From positions 62,001-126,000 of the IMG/VR virus record IMGVR_UViG_3300033997_000136: DNA of 64,000 bases. One strand, written 5' to 3'. Source of the DNA: a virus. Below the pieces are notes generated by a model, which was given only the letters and a program-made list of their open reading frames with translations, was not told the DNA's origin and did not search any database. The first letter of the stretch is position 1. Each line of letters opens with the position of its first letter. Shown here in pieces: positions 17,355-58,630 of the stretch. The translations under genes and the position numbers were made by a program.

Positions 17355-18020
17355 GTGGATAGCGCAATAGAATTGTTAAGCTTCTTAGAAAAATTGCAAG
17401 ACAATTCAAAATACAAAGTAAACTGGTTTATTAAGTTAAGTGAGGCAGAAGATTTTCGAATTGTGTGTGGTGTGGATTCTGATTCAAAAGAACCTATCAT
17501 ACCTACTAATCTACATGCTGAACGAGTGATTGTCACACATGATTCTCGAATGTTTAATTTAGCCATAGTGGTGAGTAAAAATGCTGTTGATGAGGTTGAT
17601 GTTGACCCATTAAGATTTGGTGCATATTTGCTATTAAACGAACCAAAACCATTACCTAACGTTCCCAAAGTTGTGTTCTATGGTAACGGTGGTGGTATTG
17701 ATAATCATCTTGCTAACGCAACTGTAGTGCGTTATGACACCATCAACGAGTATGTTGCTGATTTAATAAAAGAGTTAGCGAGGTATAGTGAATGTAAGTT
17801 AGTATTCGGTATAAAGAATCCGAATCTACGTTGTCATGCGTATGATTCGCGCATCAACAAATTTGTGTGGATGTTAACTGCTGACCATATTGGCCCATCT
17901 CATATTACACCAAGTCAGTTTGTAAAATGGTGTTATTTTGAAGATGGTAGCGACCGCACTATGTCGTTAAATAAAGAAATCATTAAACAACAACTCAGTT
18001 GTTTAACAGCTAATAATTAG
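17355..18020 (+). CDS. Hypothetical protein, paralogue of 18278-18715
   Basis: This 221-residue protein starts at GTG with GAGG 7 bases upstream. Residues about 38-90 (CGVDSDSKEPIIPTN, VTHDSRMFNLAIVV, DVDPLRFG) align with VGIDSVTGESILPSN, SSDERMVNHLIII and DIHPDRFG in the protein at 18278, so the two share a domain. The C-terminal 110 residues are unique to this copy. The only other gene between them is a small membrane protein. Function is unknown. Confidence 0.65.
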   Translation: MDSAIELLSFLEKLQDNSKYKVNWFIKLSEAEDFRIVCGVDSDSKEPIIPTNLHAERVIVTHDSRMFNLAIVVSKNAVDEVDVDPLRFGAYLLLNEPKPLPNVPKVVFYGNGGGIDNHLANATVVRYDTINEYVADLIKELARYSECKLVFGIKNPNLRCHAYDSRINKFVWMLTADHIGPSHITPSQFVKWCYFEDGSDRTMSLNKEIIKQQLSCLTANN

Positions 18021-18277: not shown

Positions 18278-18715
18278 ATGTCAGCATCATTAACTGAGCA
18301 ACAAAAGTTGGAAATCACAATTGAGTTTTGTGACTTTATTGAACAGCGTATAAAAAGTCGCAACACAATGGCAGCAACATTAACTGCTGCTATAAAACCA
18401 GAAGTGTTACCGTCTGTTCATTTGTTTGACTTTCGTTCTAATTTTGTAGACACTACTGTGATTGTTGGGATTGATTCTGTTACAGGCGAATCTATTCTAC
18501 CATCTAATTTTACACTAGATAACGTAAAGTTAGTATTCAGTAGCGACGAACGTATGGTTAACCATTTGATTATCATTGATAACGAAGATACTCAGATTAC
18601 CGCAATAGACGATATCCATCCAGATCGTTTTGGAACTGAGACTATGTTGTCTGGTTCTATACCTATCGGCGTCACTTGTGCTAGTGATTTGTTAAAAAGA
18701 ACAGTCGTTCCGTAG
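18278..18715 (+). CDS. Hypothetical protein, paralogue of 17355-18020
   Basis: This 145-residue protein has AGGAG 8 bases before its ATG. After an N-terminal helix (EQQKLEITIEFCDFIEQRI), it shares the VGIDS...E.I.PSN...DER...H...DRFG domain with 17355-18020, at about 25-30% identity by eye. It lacks the long C-terminal part of that copy. Its stop codon lies inside a hairpin at 18712-18735. Function is unknown. Confidence 0.65.
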   Translation: MSASLTEQQKLEITIEFCDFIEQRIKSRNTMAATLTAAIKPEVLPSVHLFDFRSNFVDTTVIVGIDSVTGESILPSNFTLDNVKLVFSSDERMVNHLIIIDNEDTQITAIDDIHPDRFGTETMLSGSIPIGVTCASDLLKRTVVP

Positions 18716-21475: not shown

Positions 21476-21510
21476 TCTTTATTTTTTTATTTGTTTTTTA
21501 ACAAAAAATC

Positions 21511-21562: not shown

Positions 21563-21820
21563 ATGTTACCAACAACTATTTATAGCGTAGAAGAACTCCG
21601 TGTGTTTTTATCAAAGCAATTGTTAGAAGCACGTAAGAAAACTGGATTGTCGCAATTAGAATTTGGTTTACTTGTCAATCGCTCATCTTCTCAAGTGTCC
21701 CGTTGGGAAAATATAGCCAACGGAAAAGCAGTGAAAACACTACCCTCAAACGATTCACTATTGATTACCTTATTTGGGTTAAACCATAAGTTAATCGTTA
21801 AAGCAGAACCTAAACCTTAG
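21563..21820 (+). CDS. XRE/Cro-family helix-turn-helix regulator
   Basis: This 85-residue DNA-binding protein has a classic HTH at about residues 15-50: ARKKTGLSQLEFGLLVNRSSSQVSRWEN, with the Q (SQLE), recognition helix SSSQVSRWE and following hydrophobic helix. A short C-terminal beta stretch (NHKLIVKAEPK) could dimerise. It is the first gene after a candidate promoter and may repress it or host genes. The exact target is unknown. Confidence 0.85.
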   Translation: MLPTTIYSVEELRVFLSKQLLEARKKTGLSQLEFGLLVNRSSSQVSRWENIANGKAVKTLPSNDSLLITLFGLNHKLIVKAEPKP

Positions 21821-40962: not shown

Positions 40963-41397
40963 ATGTCTGGTATTGCTTTAAACAAACAATTGTTGATGAT
41001 TTTAAACAAAGTCAATGGTTATGAAAAATTACCTCTGTCTGAACACTTTGGTAGTCGTATGCAACGTACCATTTACATTAAAGGTGAAGGCGAAACGACG
41101 ATTGCTGTAATAGATTCAATTGTAGTGGGTGATTGGGCATTAATTTCTACACGCTACATCACTCACCCTGTTGACTCTTACTTAATTGTGGCGGTGAGTA
41201 GAGCAGAAATGTATCGTCGAATGGCATGTATTTCTGAATTTGATGCACCTCTTTATGTCACAGAAGAAGTAGCTAGACATGTGTTAAAACAAGTGACTTA
41301 TTCAGCATCGCAAAGTTTATGTTGGAGAATCGGTGAGTATGATTCATGTAAAACAACCGATGTGTTTTTAGAATTAATGTTAAGGGGAATCAAATGA
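40963..41397 (+). CDS. Hypothetical protein, paralogue of 46493-46906
   Basis: This 144-residue soluble protein shares with the 46493 protein the pattern LMIL..vnGyekLPl...fG...q.TiYi..e..T...V..s.VVGD over its first 60 residues. The two therefore look like diverged duplicates. AAAGGAAAA lies upstream of the ATG, and it overlaps the next gene (a membrane-anchored protein) by 4 bases. Function is unknown. Confidence 0.65.
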   Translation: MSGIALNKQLLMILNKVNGYEKLPLSEHFGSRMQRTIYIKGEGETTIAVIDSIVVGDWALISTRYITHPVDSYLIVAVSRAEMYRRMACISEFDAPLYVTEEVARHVLKQVTYSASQSLCWRIGEYDSCKTTDVFLELMLRGIK

Positions 41398-46492: not shown

Positions 46493-46906
46493 ATGACTAT
46501 TTTAGAACAACTAATGATTATCCTTGCTCAACTGCCTGGACATAAAACTTTACCTATTTATAACAAAATAGGTGCTATTCATCAATCTACTGTCTATGTC
46601 CCAGATACAACAATTGGAACTGAAGTTTTACTTGTAACCGCATGTGTTGTGGGTGACGCCAGTGTGTTCTGGATTCATGATGTGAAAATGAAAACACCAA
46701 ACATGTTGTTAGGTATTGGTAAACGCGAAGACTTTTATACAGTCGTTAAAGCGTTTCCTTCACTAGGTCAAGTATTGATTCGAACGAATGACGAGATTGA
46801 AACAATACTTGCAGAACTTAGTAAAGTGTATCACTCTGGAATGACAACAAAAGTAGGTTTGACCACACAAAGTGTCACTGACGAATTTTTAGCTCTTTTT
46901 CAATAA
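46493..46906 (+). CDS. Hypothetical protein, paralogue of 40963-41397
   Basis: This 137-residue protein shares the LMIIL...pGhktLPiynkiGa.hqsTvYvpd.t.GT...V.a.VVGD pattern with the 40963 protein. The C-terminal half has diverged. AAGGTAAA lies upstream of the ATG. Function is unknown; the two copies lie in separate transcription units. Confidence 0.62.
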   Translation: MTILEQLMIILAQLPGHKTLPIYNKIGAIHQSTVYVPDTTIGTEVLLVTACVVGDASVFWIHDVKMKTPNMLLGIGKREDFYTVVKAFPSLGQVLIRTNDEIETILAELSKVYHSGMTTKVGLTTQSVTDEFLALFQ

Positions 46907-48955: not shown

Positions 48956-48975
48956 GGAAGGGCAATTGCCCTTCC
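48956..48975 (+). terminator. Rho-independent terminator (AATT loop)
   Basis: GGAAGGGC/GCCCTTCC with loop AATT is followed by CTTTATTTTTT. Confidence 0.9.
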
Positions 48976-48997
48976 CTTTATTTTTTGTCTTTTTTTC

Positions 48998-49010
48998 AAA
49001 CATACATTAT
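48998..49010 (+). promoter_or_regulatory. Candidate phage promoter
   Basis: AAACATACATTAT is identical to 14149-14161 and follows the terminator's T tract. The ATG at 49050 is 40 bases downstream. Confidence 0.55.
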
Positions 49011-49049
49011 ACTCATGACACGATTGAATAAAAACAAAAGGAGGTTATC

Positions 49050-49320: not shown

Positions 49321-49821
49321 ATGTCAACAAATAAATCAACACAATACACGATACCACCTGAGCTTATCGCTCAGTTTGGTACAGATACAGTTCGAGACCA
49401 CATGGCTCGCTCTTTAGGAAGACCTCCATCAAGTGATGAGTTATTGGCTGCTGTAAAGATGAAAGATGCGTATGCTTTTCCTAAAGACATTTTCTACGCG
49501 TATGAACATGCTCAACATTACTTAAGTCAAGACCGACGTCTTGCACTAGGGTTAGATTCGAATAAACAATACTTTGTTCGCATACAACCACCTGCTGATA
49601 ATTCAGCAGGTATTTTTCCACCCAACGAACTTAGACAACGTTTGTCATCTATTTATGAACAATATGTTGAATACAACATACCTAAAGCAGGACCCTACGG
49701 TAGTCATGTTGTTCATCGAAGTTGGGGTATGTTATCTTTGGTCGCAAAAGCTGTTAATAAAGCATTAAAGCTTACATGCAGTGGTCAATTTGGCGCACCC
49801 ACGCCATATATTCGAAACTAA
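49321..49821 (+). CDS. Hypothetical protein
   Basis: This 166-residue soluble protein begins MSTNKSTQYTIPPELIAQFG. Helical segments alternate with Pro-rich loops (SLGRPPSSDELLAA, IQPPADNSAGIFPPNE). GAAGGAAC lies upstream. It precedes a weak GGGTAG/CTACCC hairpin at 49831-49859. Function is unknown. Confidence 0.62.
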   Translation: MSTNKSTQYTIPPELIAQFGTDTVRDHMARSLGRPPSSDELLAAVKMKDAYAFPKDIFYAYEHAQHYLSQDRRLALGLDSNKQYFVRIQPPADNSAGIFPPNELRQRLSSIYEQYVEYNIPKAGPYGSHVVHRSWGMLSLVAKAVNKALKLTCSGQFGAPTPYIRN

Positions 49822-49883: not shown

Positions 49884-50414
49884 ATGCCCACTTCAAAAGA
49901 TATACCTGCACAACAGTTTGTGAATCTTTTTGGTTCTACGCCATTTCAAAATATTGTTGTGATTCAAAAACGTTCTATCGCATCTCGCAGTGATGCGTTT
50001 GATAACGAACCCTACTACCGTGGTCTTACGTTAAGTAAAGGGTGGTTAGAACACGTTATTCTTTTATTAAAGAAACCGTACGTTGCTGCAATAGACGATA
50101 TTACAGCATATTCTATCCTTCGTGCAAGCGATTCAGATATCAAAGCATCACCGTGGGTGCTTACTCATGCGGCTATCGCTATAGTGACGCCATACGGCCC
50201 TGTGGTTGCGTATACAGTGGCTGGTGAGGAGATTATTCGTTCTCATGTACCAAATGAGTTAAAGTGCTACTTACCTTCTGAGTTTTGGGTAGGTGAATCA
50301 TTGAATTACTTCATCCCTAAACTTGCTGATTTCTGCAGACGAAGAGCATTGGATGTTGCAGCGGCAAAAAATCCAACATTAGAAACAATCAAAGAATCGG
50401 TAGGTAACTCGTGA
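49884..50414 (+). CDS. Hypothetical protein sharing a domain with 40091-40891
   Basis: This 176-residue protein starts at ATG 49884 with AAGGA upstream; longer in-frame starts run into the previous gene. AIAIVTPYGPVVAY and VPNELKCYLPSEFWVGESL match the 40091 protein (see there). It overlaps the first of three winged-helix-like genes by 4 bases and may work with them. Function is unknown. Confidence 0.65.
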   Translation: MPTSKDIPAQQFVNLFGSTPFQNIVVIQKRSIASRSDAFDNEPYYRGLTLSKGWLEHVILLLKKPYVAAIDDITAYSILRASDSDIKASPWVLTHAAIAIVTPYGPVVAYTVAGEEIIRSHVPNELKCYLPSEFWVGESLNYFIPKLADFCRRRALDVAAAKNPTLETIKESVGNS

Positions 50415-50728
50415 GTACATTAATTGTTGAAGCCTTTACCCATCAAGCCCTTTGGTCTGCAAAGTCTCCATTTCGAAATAGTCCGCTTGCAAAGAGCACA
50501 GACCGTTTTATAAACCACGTTCGTATCGAGTTAAACTTAGAAGGTGTGTATTACGTCATTACTAAGTTGATGAAGAAACAGTATGCAGGTGGTCGTCCTG
50601 CGGTGTTAAAACATTTAGCCATGTTAACTAAGGTTGGTACACTTACTCGTATCGAAAATGGTAAAGAAACAACGTGGATGATGATGGTCGATGTATCACA
50701 ACAACAAAATCAAGGAGCGACGTCATGA
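50411..50728 (+). CDS. Winged-helix-like DNA-binding protein, copy 1 of 3
   Basis: This 105-residue protein starts at GTG overlapping the previous stop. The segment YAGGRPAVLKHLAMLTKVGTLTRIENGKETTWMM (residues 58-91, split here for description) has the helix-helix-wing pattern of winged-helix domains: a GGRPAVLxHL recognition helix, then a beta wing. It shares this pattern and its start (I/L-x-x-AF) with the next two genes. It is probably a phage regulator that binds DNA. The target is unknown. Confidence 0.65.
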   Translation: MSTLIVEAFTHQALWSAKSPFRNSPLAKSTDRFINHVRIELNLEGVYYVITKLMKKQYAGGRPAVLKHLAMLTKVGTLTRIENGKETTWMMMVDVSQQQNQGATS

Positions 50729-51195
50729 AAGACATTATTTTAACAGCCTTTGCAGACCATGCAAAGAAAGCGTTGGGTGAAGGTCAAGCTCAATTAAGTA
50801 AACCAGATGTGGTACGCAATACCGTCAAAGCAACACCTGGGTATGTCGTTGTTACTCCACAAGGTGACATTGTAGTACAAAAAGCATTTAAAGATATTGT
50901 GGATGTGATTCGTACTGTATTAGGTAAAGATGTACCCGGCGGTAAACCTGCAGTCAGTCGTGTGGTTGATACCTTAGTACGACAAAACGTGTTTAAACGT
51001 GTTGTTTGCAATTTAACGGGCGGTACGTTGCTTGAGTACAAGTTACCTAACAACGTCAAGGTAGATGTACTTGAGTATGCTACGCATCGAATTGCAGCAA
51101 ATCAATTAGCAAAACAACAAATGCGTTCGTCATTAGGTCAGTTGACCTCAAAGGTGATTCGAACCGCTAAACAATTTATCCGAGGTAGTGAATGA
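50725..51195 (+). CDS. Winged-helix-like DNA-binding protein, copy 2 of 3
   Basis: This 156-residue protein starts at ATG 50725 (GGAG upstream, ATGA overlap), not at the longer in-frame start. It begins MKDIILTAFADHAKK. GGKPAVSRVVDTLVRQNVF (72-90) then KRVVCNLTGGTLLEY correspond to the recognition helix and wing of its neighbours. A basic C-terminal extension (AANQLAKQQMRSSLGQLTSK) is unique to this copy. Confidence 0.65.
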   Translation: MKDIILTAFADHAKKALGEGQAQLSKPDVVRNTVKATPGYVVVTPQGDIVVQKAFKDIVDVIRTVLGKDVPGGKPAVSRVVDTLVRQNVFKRVVCNLTGGTLLEYKLPNNVKVDVLEYATHRIAANQLAKQQMRSSLGQLTSKVIRTAKQFIRGSE

Positions 51196-51605
51196 AAGAG
51201 TTAATTTTAAAAGCATTTAAGTCGCGATTAGCGGGTGTGCTGCAAACACGTTTACTTAAACAGTCACCGTTTTATCATGAAGTAAATGGTAGTCCAGTTG
51301 CAGTGATTGCATTAGATTTAAATGGTATCTTCTACGGTGCGACTGAGCAGAAACCAAATGAGCGTGTTCGGTACATTCCAGGTGGTCGTCCAGCGCTTTT
51401 AAACCATCTAAAGAAGTTAGTAAACGATGGCGTATTGATTGACCAAGGAACCAATTGGGGTCCTCGGTATTGGGCGTACAAATTTACTGGTGAAGAGTTG
51501 GAAACTATCGTTGAAGAAACGAAGCGTCCACGTGAATTTGCTGAAGTATTCTTTCCAGTTAAAACTGAAGAGGTGAATCAACATGAAACGAGTGAACAGC
51601 TCTAA
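51192..51605 (+). CDS. Winged-helix-like DNA-binding protein, copy 3 of 3
   Basis: This 137-residue protein begins MKELILKAFKSRLAG, close to copy 2. It contains LDLNGIFYGATEQ (like LNLEGVYYVITKL of copy 1), GGRPALLNHLKKLVNDGVL (64-82) and a wing GPRYWAYKF. It overlaps copy 2 by 4 bases and the AlpA-like gene by 23 bases, so all are translated from one message. It is a presumed DNA-binding regulator. Confidence 0.65.
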   Translation: MKELILKAFKSRLAGVLQTRLLKQSPFYHEVNGSPVAVIALDLNGIFYGATEQKPNERVRYIPGGRPALLNHLKKLVNDGVLIDQGTNWGPRYWAYKFTGEELETIVEETKRPREFAEVFFPVKTEEVNQHETSEQL

Positions 51606-51840
51606 AGAGCAAACTATCACTGAAGTGACTCGCGACGATGGTAGTGTAGTTCGTTTTAGAAAGTTATTAACAGCTAAAATGGTGTGTGAGCTTTTAAGCA
51701 TTAGTCGTTCAACGTTAGAACGTCATCTCAAAGATGGAAAGTTAATGTCTCCAACATTCTATCTAGGACAATCACCTCGTTGGGCTGATATCATGTTAAT
51801 TGATTGGCTAAAACAAAAGACAGGAGGTCAATGTGGCTGA
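51583..51840 (+). CDS. AlpA/excisionase-like helix-turn-helix protein
   Basis: This 85-residue protein has a MerR/AlpA-like HTH: LLTAKMVCELLSISRSTLERHLKDGKLMSP (helix, turn, recognition helix), then PRWADIMLIDWLKQK, the pattern of AlpA family regulators and excisionases (target chosen, then a W..d...W segment). It is the fourth DNA-binding gene in tandem. In a phage without a visible integrase it is more likely a transcription regulator than an excisionase. Confidence 0.8.
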   Translation: MKRVNSSKEQTITEVTRDDGSVVRFRKLLTAKMVCELLSISRSTLERHLKDGKLMSPTFYLGQSPRWADIMLIDWLKQKTGGQCG

Positions 51841-52600
51841 AGGGTCTATTCAAGCTTATCTACATCAATGTAGGGCTGCTAAAGGTATCATTGGTTTTAC
51901 GCCAGAAGAATTGGCCACTGAAACAAAAACAGATGCGTTGTTAAAGCGCATTGTGAAACATTTAGACGCAGTTGTTGAGATGGGTATTAATTGCGCAGAC
52001 TCAGATACGGTACTTACTAACCATGCTGAGTTCTGTGAACTTGCAAGTCTTATCCATGATGTACCTACCATTGAGTTCATTGAGGCAGTAGTCAAGAACG
52101 ATTATCGCTGTTCAATAGAACATCACTTTGGTTTATTATCAATGATGGTCATGTTAACCACCTTTAGAAACAAAGGTCAGATTTCAATCCTAGAATGGAT
52201 GCAGTCTATCTTGTTGTGGGGTTGTTTAGCTGACCATTCACGTCAACCTATCAAAGACAATATTGTAAAACACGATTGGGGGCGTGCTGCTGCTTTCTAC
52301 ACTAAACTATTGGCTAAAGAAATAGCAATGGCACCCATTGTTCATTTCACAGCCCCTAAAATGGTAGATGTGTACGATGAAGTGGTTAATGGATTAACTG
52401 ATATGGTTGGACAACACTTTGTAGATGCTGGAATTGCAAAGCGAATCAACACTAAAGTAGTCGTTATTGGAAGCGTTGGACACCCCACTATAACGACAGC
52501 GTGTCGTGTGCCGGGTAAGTTGTTGGAACCATCATTCTCAGCAAAACCATTTTGGGTTCAACGTCAAGAAAAACAGTCTCGTCGACAACATCGACGTTAA
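51833..52600 (+). CDS. Hypothetical protein, 255 aa
   Basis: This helical protein starts at GTG 51833 with AGGAGGT upstream and overlaps the AlpA-like gene by 8 bases. His-rich blocks (IEHHFGLLSMMVMLTTF, ADHSRQPIKDNIVKHDWG) could bind metal but match no motif. The C-terminus is strongly basic (RQEKQSRRQHRR), suitable for nucleic acid contact. It is coupled to the regulator cluster and may act with it. Confidence 0.65.
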   Translation: MAEGSIQAYLHQCRAAKGIIGFTPEELATETKTDALLKRIVKHLDAVVEMGINCADSDTVLTNHAEFCELASLIHDVPTIEFIEAVVKNDYRCSIEHHFGLLSMMVMLTTFRNKGQISILEWMQSILLWGCLADHSRQPIKDNIVKHDWGRAAAFYTKLLAKEIAMAPIVHFTAPKMVDVYDEVVNGLTDMVGQHFVDAGIAKRINTKVVVIGSVGHPTITTACRVPGKLLEPSFSAKPFWVQRQEKQSRRQHRR

Positions 52601-53334: not shown

Positions 53335-54063
53335 ATGAAAACAGTATTATTCTTATTATTAACCCTGGTTGCATTCAACTCGAACGCTTCATTCGATCAA
53401 TTTGGCACAACAATTATCAAAGCCGCACAAACTGTTAACGTAGACCCATTGGTACTTAGTGCGTTTGCTCACAAAGAAACAAACTTCAGAAACGTGAAAG
53501 CAACGTATAAAAAATCTACCGCTGCTGGTCTTTTTCAAATTAACAACAGAACCTGGAAAGGTCTTCTTGAAAAGTATGGACATGAAGTCCATTTAGATAC
53601 AACCGCAAGTAAATTTGACCCACGTGCTAATAGCTTAATGGCTGGTATCTATGTACGTGAAAACGCAAAAGCATTGAAACGTGTTTTAGGTCGTAAAGCA
53701 ACCCCTGCTGAAATGTACATGTCACATCTACTAGGGTTAGGTGGTGCTATTAAAGTATTAACCGCTAAACGTAGTAAAGTCATCGCTGATGTTGTAGCTT
53801 ATGCCATCGCTGGAAATAAACGTTTATTTGTGACTGAAAAAGGTAAGTTCAGAACCGTTGGACAATTCCGTGATTACATGCATTGGAAGTTTAGTCAGGT
53901 GATGAATGATATCAAAGATACTGTAGATACCACTGTGGCTAAAATAGAAGCCCAGAAGCACTACAATGAAATGAAACGCAAAGCCACTACCTATGTGTCA
54001 AGTATAGGTGATGTCTCGTTAAAATTGATTACCGTGTCCATATTTGGACGAACACTAACCTAA
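53335..54063 (+). CDS. Exported lytic transglycosylase-like lysozyme (SLT fold)
   Basis: This 242-residue protein has a Sec signal peptide (MKTVLFLLLTLVAFNSNA, cleavage near residue 18). An SLT/goose-lysozyme domain follows: AFAHKETNFRNVK with catalytic Glu48, then STAAGLFQINNRTW (residues 61-74), a LLGLGGA segment and a C-terminal helical region. It would cleave the glycan strands of peptidoglycan from the periplasm. The start at 53335 has AAGGACG upstream; an in-frame start at 53269 lies before the leader hairpin. It is a separate enzyme from the GH108 endolysin of this phage. Confidence 0.82.
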   Translation: MKTVLFLLLTLVAFNSNASFDQFGTTIIKAAQTVNVDPLVLSAFAHKETNFRNVKATYKKSTAAGLFQINNRTWKGLLEKYGHEVHLDTTASKFDPRANSLMAGIYVRENAKALKRVLGRKATPAEMYMSHLLGLGGAIKVLTAKRSKVIADVVAYAIAGNKRLFVTEKGKFRTVGQFRDYMHWKFSQVMNDIKDTVDTTVAKIEAQKHYNEMKRKATTYVSSIGDVSLKLITVSIFGRTLT

Positions 54064-54065
54064 GA

Positions 54066-54095
54066 AGAAGGACAGAGCAAATGCTCTGTCCTTCT
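54066..54095 (+). terminator. Rho-independent terminator
   Basis: AGAAGGACAGAGC/GCTCTGTCCTTCT with loop AAAT is followed by CTATGCTTTTTTTAT. Confidence 0.9.
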
Positions 54096-54124
54096 CTATG
54101 CTTTTTTTATAAAAGGACCCCACA

Positions 54125-58598: not shown

Positions 58599-58616
58599 GG
58601 AGGGCAATTGCCCTCC
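58599..58616. terminator. Terminator between convergent genes (AATT loop)
   Basis: GGAGGGC/GCCCTCC with loop AATT is identical, with its flanks, to 21458-21475. The T tract serves plus-strand transcripts. The minus-strand Nudix gene ends at 58631, so the stem may serve it too. Confidence 0.9.
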
Positions 58617-58630
58617 TCTTTATTTTTTGT

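Follow-up and report, generated by a model that had tools for sequence, protein, structure and literature searches.

A tandem cluster of small predicted DNA-binding genes in a putative early operon of a chimallivirus

The DNA analyzed here, referred to as the window, is a stretch of 64,000 bases corresponding to bases 62001-126000 of a 213,150-base (~213 kb) IMG/VR virus record. Between 50411 and 52600 of the window, five genes, G1 to G5, overlap head to tail (Table 1). The overlap between the upstream gene and G1 comprises 4 bases (GTGA). The G1/G2 (50725-50728) and G2/G3 (51192-51195) junctions likewise comprise 4 bases each (ATGA), and 8 bases are shared by G4 and G5. The initial annotation had described a cluster at 50411-51840 in which three coupled genes share a GG[RK]PA[VL] motif, a common start and 4-base overlaps, and in which an AlpA-like gene overlaps the third copy. 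Its coordinates, overlaps and motifs were all confirmed, the last overlap measuring 23 bases. The 255-residue protein with a basic tail (RRQHRR) was also found behind the cluster as described. For G2, the longest open reading frame begins at GTG 50674; the ATG at 50725, however, combines a good ribosome site with the start motif shared by the other two copies.

Table 1. Features of the cluster and of the transcription unit around it (window positions)
Feature	Position	Strand	Basis
Intrinsic terminator of preceding unit, GGAAGGGCAATTGCCCTTCC then CTTTATTTTTTG	48956..48985	+	Hairpin-plus-T
Probable early promoter, CAAACATACATTATACTCATGACAC	48997..49021	+	Weight matrix site, directly after terminator
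166-aa protein, no family assigned	49321..49821	+	Same transcription unit as cluster; family profile searches without match
176-aa protein, no function assigned	49884..50414	+	ORF; overlaps G1
G1, 105 aa, probable winged-helix paralogue, pI 9.9	50411..50728	+	Homology to G3
G2, 156 aa, divergent paralogue, GGKPAV, basic C-terminal extension, pI 10.0	50725..51195	+	G1+G3 HMM; model unusable
G3, 137 aa, predicted winged-helix paralogue, helices 43-52 and 65-78, wing strands 82-86 and 93-98	51192..51605	+	Structure model, paralogy
G4, 85 aa, AlpA/excisionase-type (HTH_17-like) predicted DNA-binding protein	51583..51840	+	PHROGs, PF12728 below cut-off, Noxifer gp161
G5, 255 aa, no function assigned, basic C-terminal tail QSRRQHRR	51833..52600	+	ORF
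Transglycosylase-like gene	53338..54063	+	Precedes terminator that closes the unit
Terminator closing the unit, long stem, after transglycosylase-like gene	54066..54105	+	Next long-stem forward terminator after 48956

A promoter motif was derived by k-mer comparison of intergenic with coding DNA, followed by a weight matrix. The comparison yielded ATACATTAT, which occurs in nine upstream regions and in no gene, and the resulting motif, CAAACATACATTAT-N5-TG, lies just upstream of genes. At a score of at least 14, the matrix returned 21 sites in the genome, 20 of them intergenic and all 20 on the coding strand; since the hits had also served to train the matrix, this count is descriptive only. 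Sites were located upstream of, among others, the genes for chimallin (207869) and an RNA polymerase (RNAP) subunit (9586). Seven lie in the window (8335, 14148, 21510, 27246, 35219, 40003 and 48997) and 13 more elsewhere in the record. The motif is read as the probable early promoter of the phage, predicted to be used by the virion RNAP; early motifs of phiKZ-like phages are likewise AT-rich (PMC7598289). The presence of seven such sites suggests that most of the gene-dense stretch of the window would be early. The cluster itself is placed inside a unit from 48997 to about 54100, with the promoter motif at its head and terminators at both bounds. A hairpin near-identical to that at 48956, with a TTTATTTTTT tail, is also found before 21479 and at 58599-58621; the near-identical terminators at about 21460, 48956 and 58599 read GGAGGGCAATTGCCCTCC or GGAAGGGCAATTGCCCTTCC, then CTTTATTTTTT. 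Directly after the motif site at 21510, an 85-aa protein that resembles XRE-type helix-turn-helix (HTH) proteins by eye is encoded at 21563-21820.

Of the 237 genes predicted in the phage, only G1, G2 and G3 contain the GG[RK]PA[VL] motif; these three also have an MKxxILxAF-like N-terminal start in common. Smith-Waterman alignment gave scores of 75 for G1-G3, 55 for G2-G3 and 47 for G1-G2, compared with shuffled means of about 26-27 (sd about 4.5). The observed score was reached by none of 1000 shuffles for the first two pairs and by 1 of 1000 for G1-G2. In a search of the phage proteome with an HMM built from G1 and G3, G2 was the sole other significant match (E 0.0016). At the DNA level, G1 and G3 retain a 52-nt direct repeat (50586-50637 and 51379-51430, 73% identical) that spans the presumed recognition helix and the motif. 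Because of the shuffle-tested similarity, the HMM result, the restricted motif and the residual repeat, local duplication is the best account of G1-G3 as tandem paralogues, and the earlier proposal of duplication in place is supported. Since two unrelated phage genes score 50 and 47 against G2, its kinship is the least secure of the three and forms the weakest link of this account. That G2 is instead an unrelated gene carrying a chance GGKPAV motif appears very unlikely: single-sequence searches with G2 gave no significant match, an unrelated gene reaches a similar score with it and its model does not show a wing, but it is ranked first by the G1+G3 HMM, its score with G3 exceeds all 1000 shuffles and it has the same start as the other two copies. 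Other paralogous pairs were observed in the gene-dense region, at 40963-41397 and 46493-46906 (E 9e-7) and at 17355-18020 and 18278-18715 (E 1e-6).

A recognition helix followed by a beta wing had been suggested for all three copies. An AlphaFold2 model of G3, calculated from a three-row alignment, reached moderate confidence (mean pLDDT 61.5), whereas the other four models remained at pLDDT 34-48. The G3 model shows a helix, a beta hairpin, the two HTH helices and then the two wing strands, and the second HTH helix opens with the GG[RK]PA sequence. In a fold search against the PDB the best match had an E value of 0.038, none being below 0.001. The matches were mostly winged-helix proteins (winged helices of the origin recognition complex (ORC), MarR, Fur, CodY and histone H1), together with a few other entries such as the Roquin ROQ domain. 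Matches in BFVD were weak and mixed. The G2 model (pLDDT 41.7) was unusable, and its fold search was uninformative. For G1, the only Pfam match of note was a weak one (E 0.037) of residues 44-89, the region equivalent to the G3 HTH, to the SoFic C-terminal domain, which we take to be a winged-helix domain. No winged-helix family profile in Pfam, NCBIfam or PHROGs was matched above cut-off by G1-G3. The predicted HTH regions of all three proteins are basic (pI 9.5-9.9). The suggested fold is thus supported for G3 at the moderate confidence of its model and is probable for G1 by homology to G3; it carries over to G2 only weakly, because the G2 model failed.

The assignment of G4 as AlpA-like is supported by PHROGs families and by a homologue in the Pseudomonas phage Noxifer. 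G4 matched the HTH/DNA-binding families phrog_10045 (E 4.3e-6) and phrog_597 (E 6.7e-6) of PHROGs; matches to PF12728 (23.7 bits, E 5.9e-5; cut-off 27 bits) and to the excisionase-type TIGR01764 were below cut-off. Homologues were detected by tblastn in Noxifer (NOXIFER_161, gp161; 42% identity) and in the Burkholderia phage FLC9 (gp243; 36% identity). G4 is predicted to be an AlpA/excisionase-type HTH protein. The two homologues resemble G4 itself and differ in their surroundings, where the G1-G3 motif is absent. In FLC9, two AlpA-like genes, gp242 and gp243, are adjacent (2233-2785 of the examined FLC9 stretch), giving a second chimallivirus with small HTH genes in tandem. The genes gp244-gp246, which lie upstream of the FLC9 homologue in a similar layout, were considered as a parallel cluster and rejected; they lack the motif, and gp244 appears acetyltransferase-like by eye.

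The same two genes, near-identical, were found at both ends of the record (41-1042 and 212106-213107; phmmer E 9e-89 and 1e-120). This is the pattern of an end-repeated assembly, and the record looks essentially complete. A profile search identified chimallin as a 636-aa protein (PF25677, E 9.7e-43). Because chimallin, a phiKZ-type major capsid protein, a divergent DNA polymerase of phiKZ type and several RNAP beta-type subunits of multisubunit RNAPs are encoded, the phage is, by its gene content, a nucleus-forming jumbo phage of the Chimalliviridae. The DNA polymerase found its best named matches in RAY/MadMel-type Erwinia phages, with an identity of only 38%; among the matches found, one IMG/VR record alone, a 68-kb contig, contained the same polymerase (100% identity). 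A scan with the capsid protein revealed no close kin of the phage, and a family scan for defence families gave weak matches only.

Relatives of G1-G3 outside this phage were sought in several collections. No relative was detected in phage records with G3, G1 and the cluster DNA as queries, in IMG/VR contigs, GTDB genome contigs or PDB sequences, or, by profile, in ten chimalliviruses and three IMG/VR contigs. The collection scans used short peptide patterns or tblastn, by which remote homologues could be missed, and within the collections searched the three-copy family appears to be an orphan. Regarding known systems, a survey reports that transcription factors, mostly of the HTH or winged-HTH type, are encoded by 92% of jumbo phages, with a median of 2 and a range of 1-15 (PMC7824862). 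The cluster resembles these factors in consisting of small phage-encoded predicted DNA-binding proteins; it differs in that the G1-G3 family was not found elsewhere and is present as three coupled tandem copies. The G3 model shares the helix-turn-helix-wing layout of MarR-type regulators, whereas no significant sequence match of G1-G3 to any such family was obtained. The chimallivirus RAY, to whose type the best polymerase matches belong, encodes with gp094 a regulator-type protein that localizes to host DNA (PMC10299810), an example of a regulator from this family that associates with the DNA of the host. RAY gp094 has an XRE HTH rather than a winged helix.

Taken together, we consider it on balance probable that the cluster encodes early-expressed phage transcription regulators that arose by local gene triplication, accompanied by the AlpA-like G4. 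This reading draws on the paralogy and the residual repeat, the G3 model and its fold matches, the weak SoFic match of G1, the HTH profiles of G4, the basic HTH regions, the early-type promoter and the bounding terminators, the chimallivirus markers and the jumbo-phage precedents; against it stand the lack of a winged-helix profile above cut-off, the moderate G3 model from a three-row alignment, the unusable G2 model and the failure to find relatives outside the phage in the collections searched. One small winged-helix gene would have been duplicated locally to give G1, G2 and G3, which then diverged. The proteins would be made early and together by way of the overlapping start and stop codons, and may assemble into homo- or hetero-oligomers that contact DNA with the recognition helix headed by GG[RK]PA. 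Once bound, they would repress or activate promoters, whose location may be the phage nucleus or the host chromosome. The earlier suggestion that the cluster could switch gene classes or act on host promoters would be compatible with the early-type promoter upstream. Four predicted regulators in one operon are dense, not extraordinary, given the range known for jumbo phages, and although this set of phage regulators is unusually dense, it is probably an ordinary one.

Two other functions are the main rivals of a regulatory one. Winged helices can also mediate protein contacts, and the G1-G3 proteins might bind proteins instead of DNA, for example to inhibit a host RNAP, nuclease or a defence protein early in infection, with the tandem copies reflecting diversification against host targets. 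The early-type promoter, the setting among many short genes without assigned function and the divergence and orphan status of G1-G3 would all fit such a role; however, the basic HTH regions and the coupling to a second, HTH-type gene favor DNA binding, and we regard this possibility as unlikely. A role on phage DNA in replication or recombination, as origin-binding or Xis-like architectural factors, is decidedly unlikely. The ORC winged helices among the best fold matches of G3, the excisionase-like nature of G4 and the uvsX gene adjoining the Noxifer homologue point in this direction, but ORC and MarR winged helices match G3 about equally weakly, so that the fold cannot separate this role from a regulatory one, and the scan of window proteins turned up neither an integrase nor an excision context.

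With transcription regulation as the preferred reading, the locus touches on how chimalliviruses time their gene expression. The non-virion RNAP (nvRNAP) of phiKZ did not transcribe from middle promoters in vitro (PMC7598289). It would be a long shot that G1-G3, as a new lineage-specific and co-translated winged-helix family, form a heteromeric early-to-middle switch for the phage RNAPs, and possibly provide the specificity factor for middle promoters that has been missing in chimalliviruses. HTH and winged-HTH factors are already known from jumbo phages; what is new here is the apparently orphan G1-G3 sequence family, a small case of gene triplication inside a coupled phage operon. An early operon rich in predicted DNA-binding proteins would be a natural place to seek factors that govern the choice of middle promoters in chimalliviruses, or regulators of host takeover.
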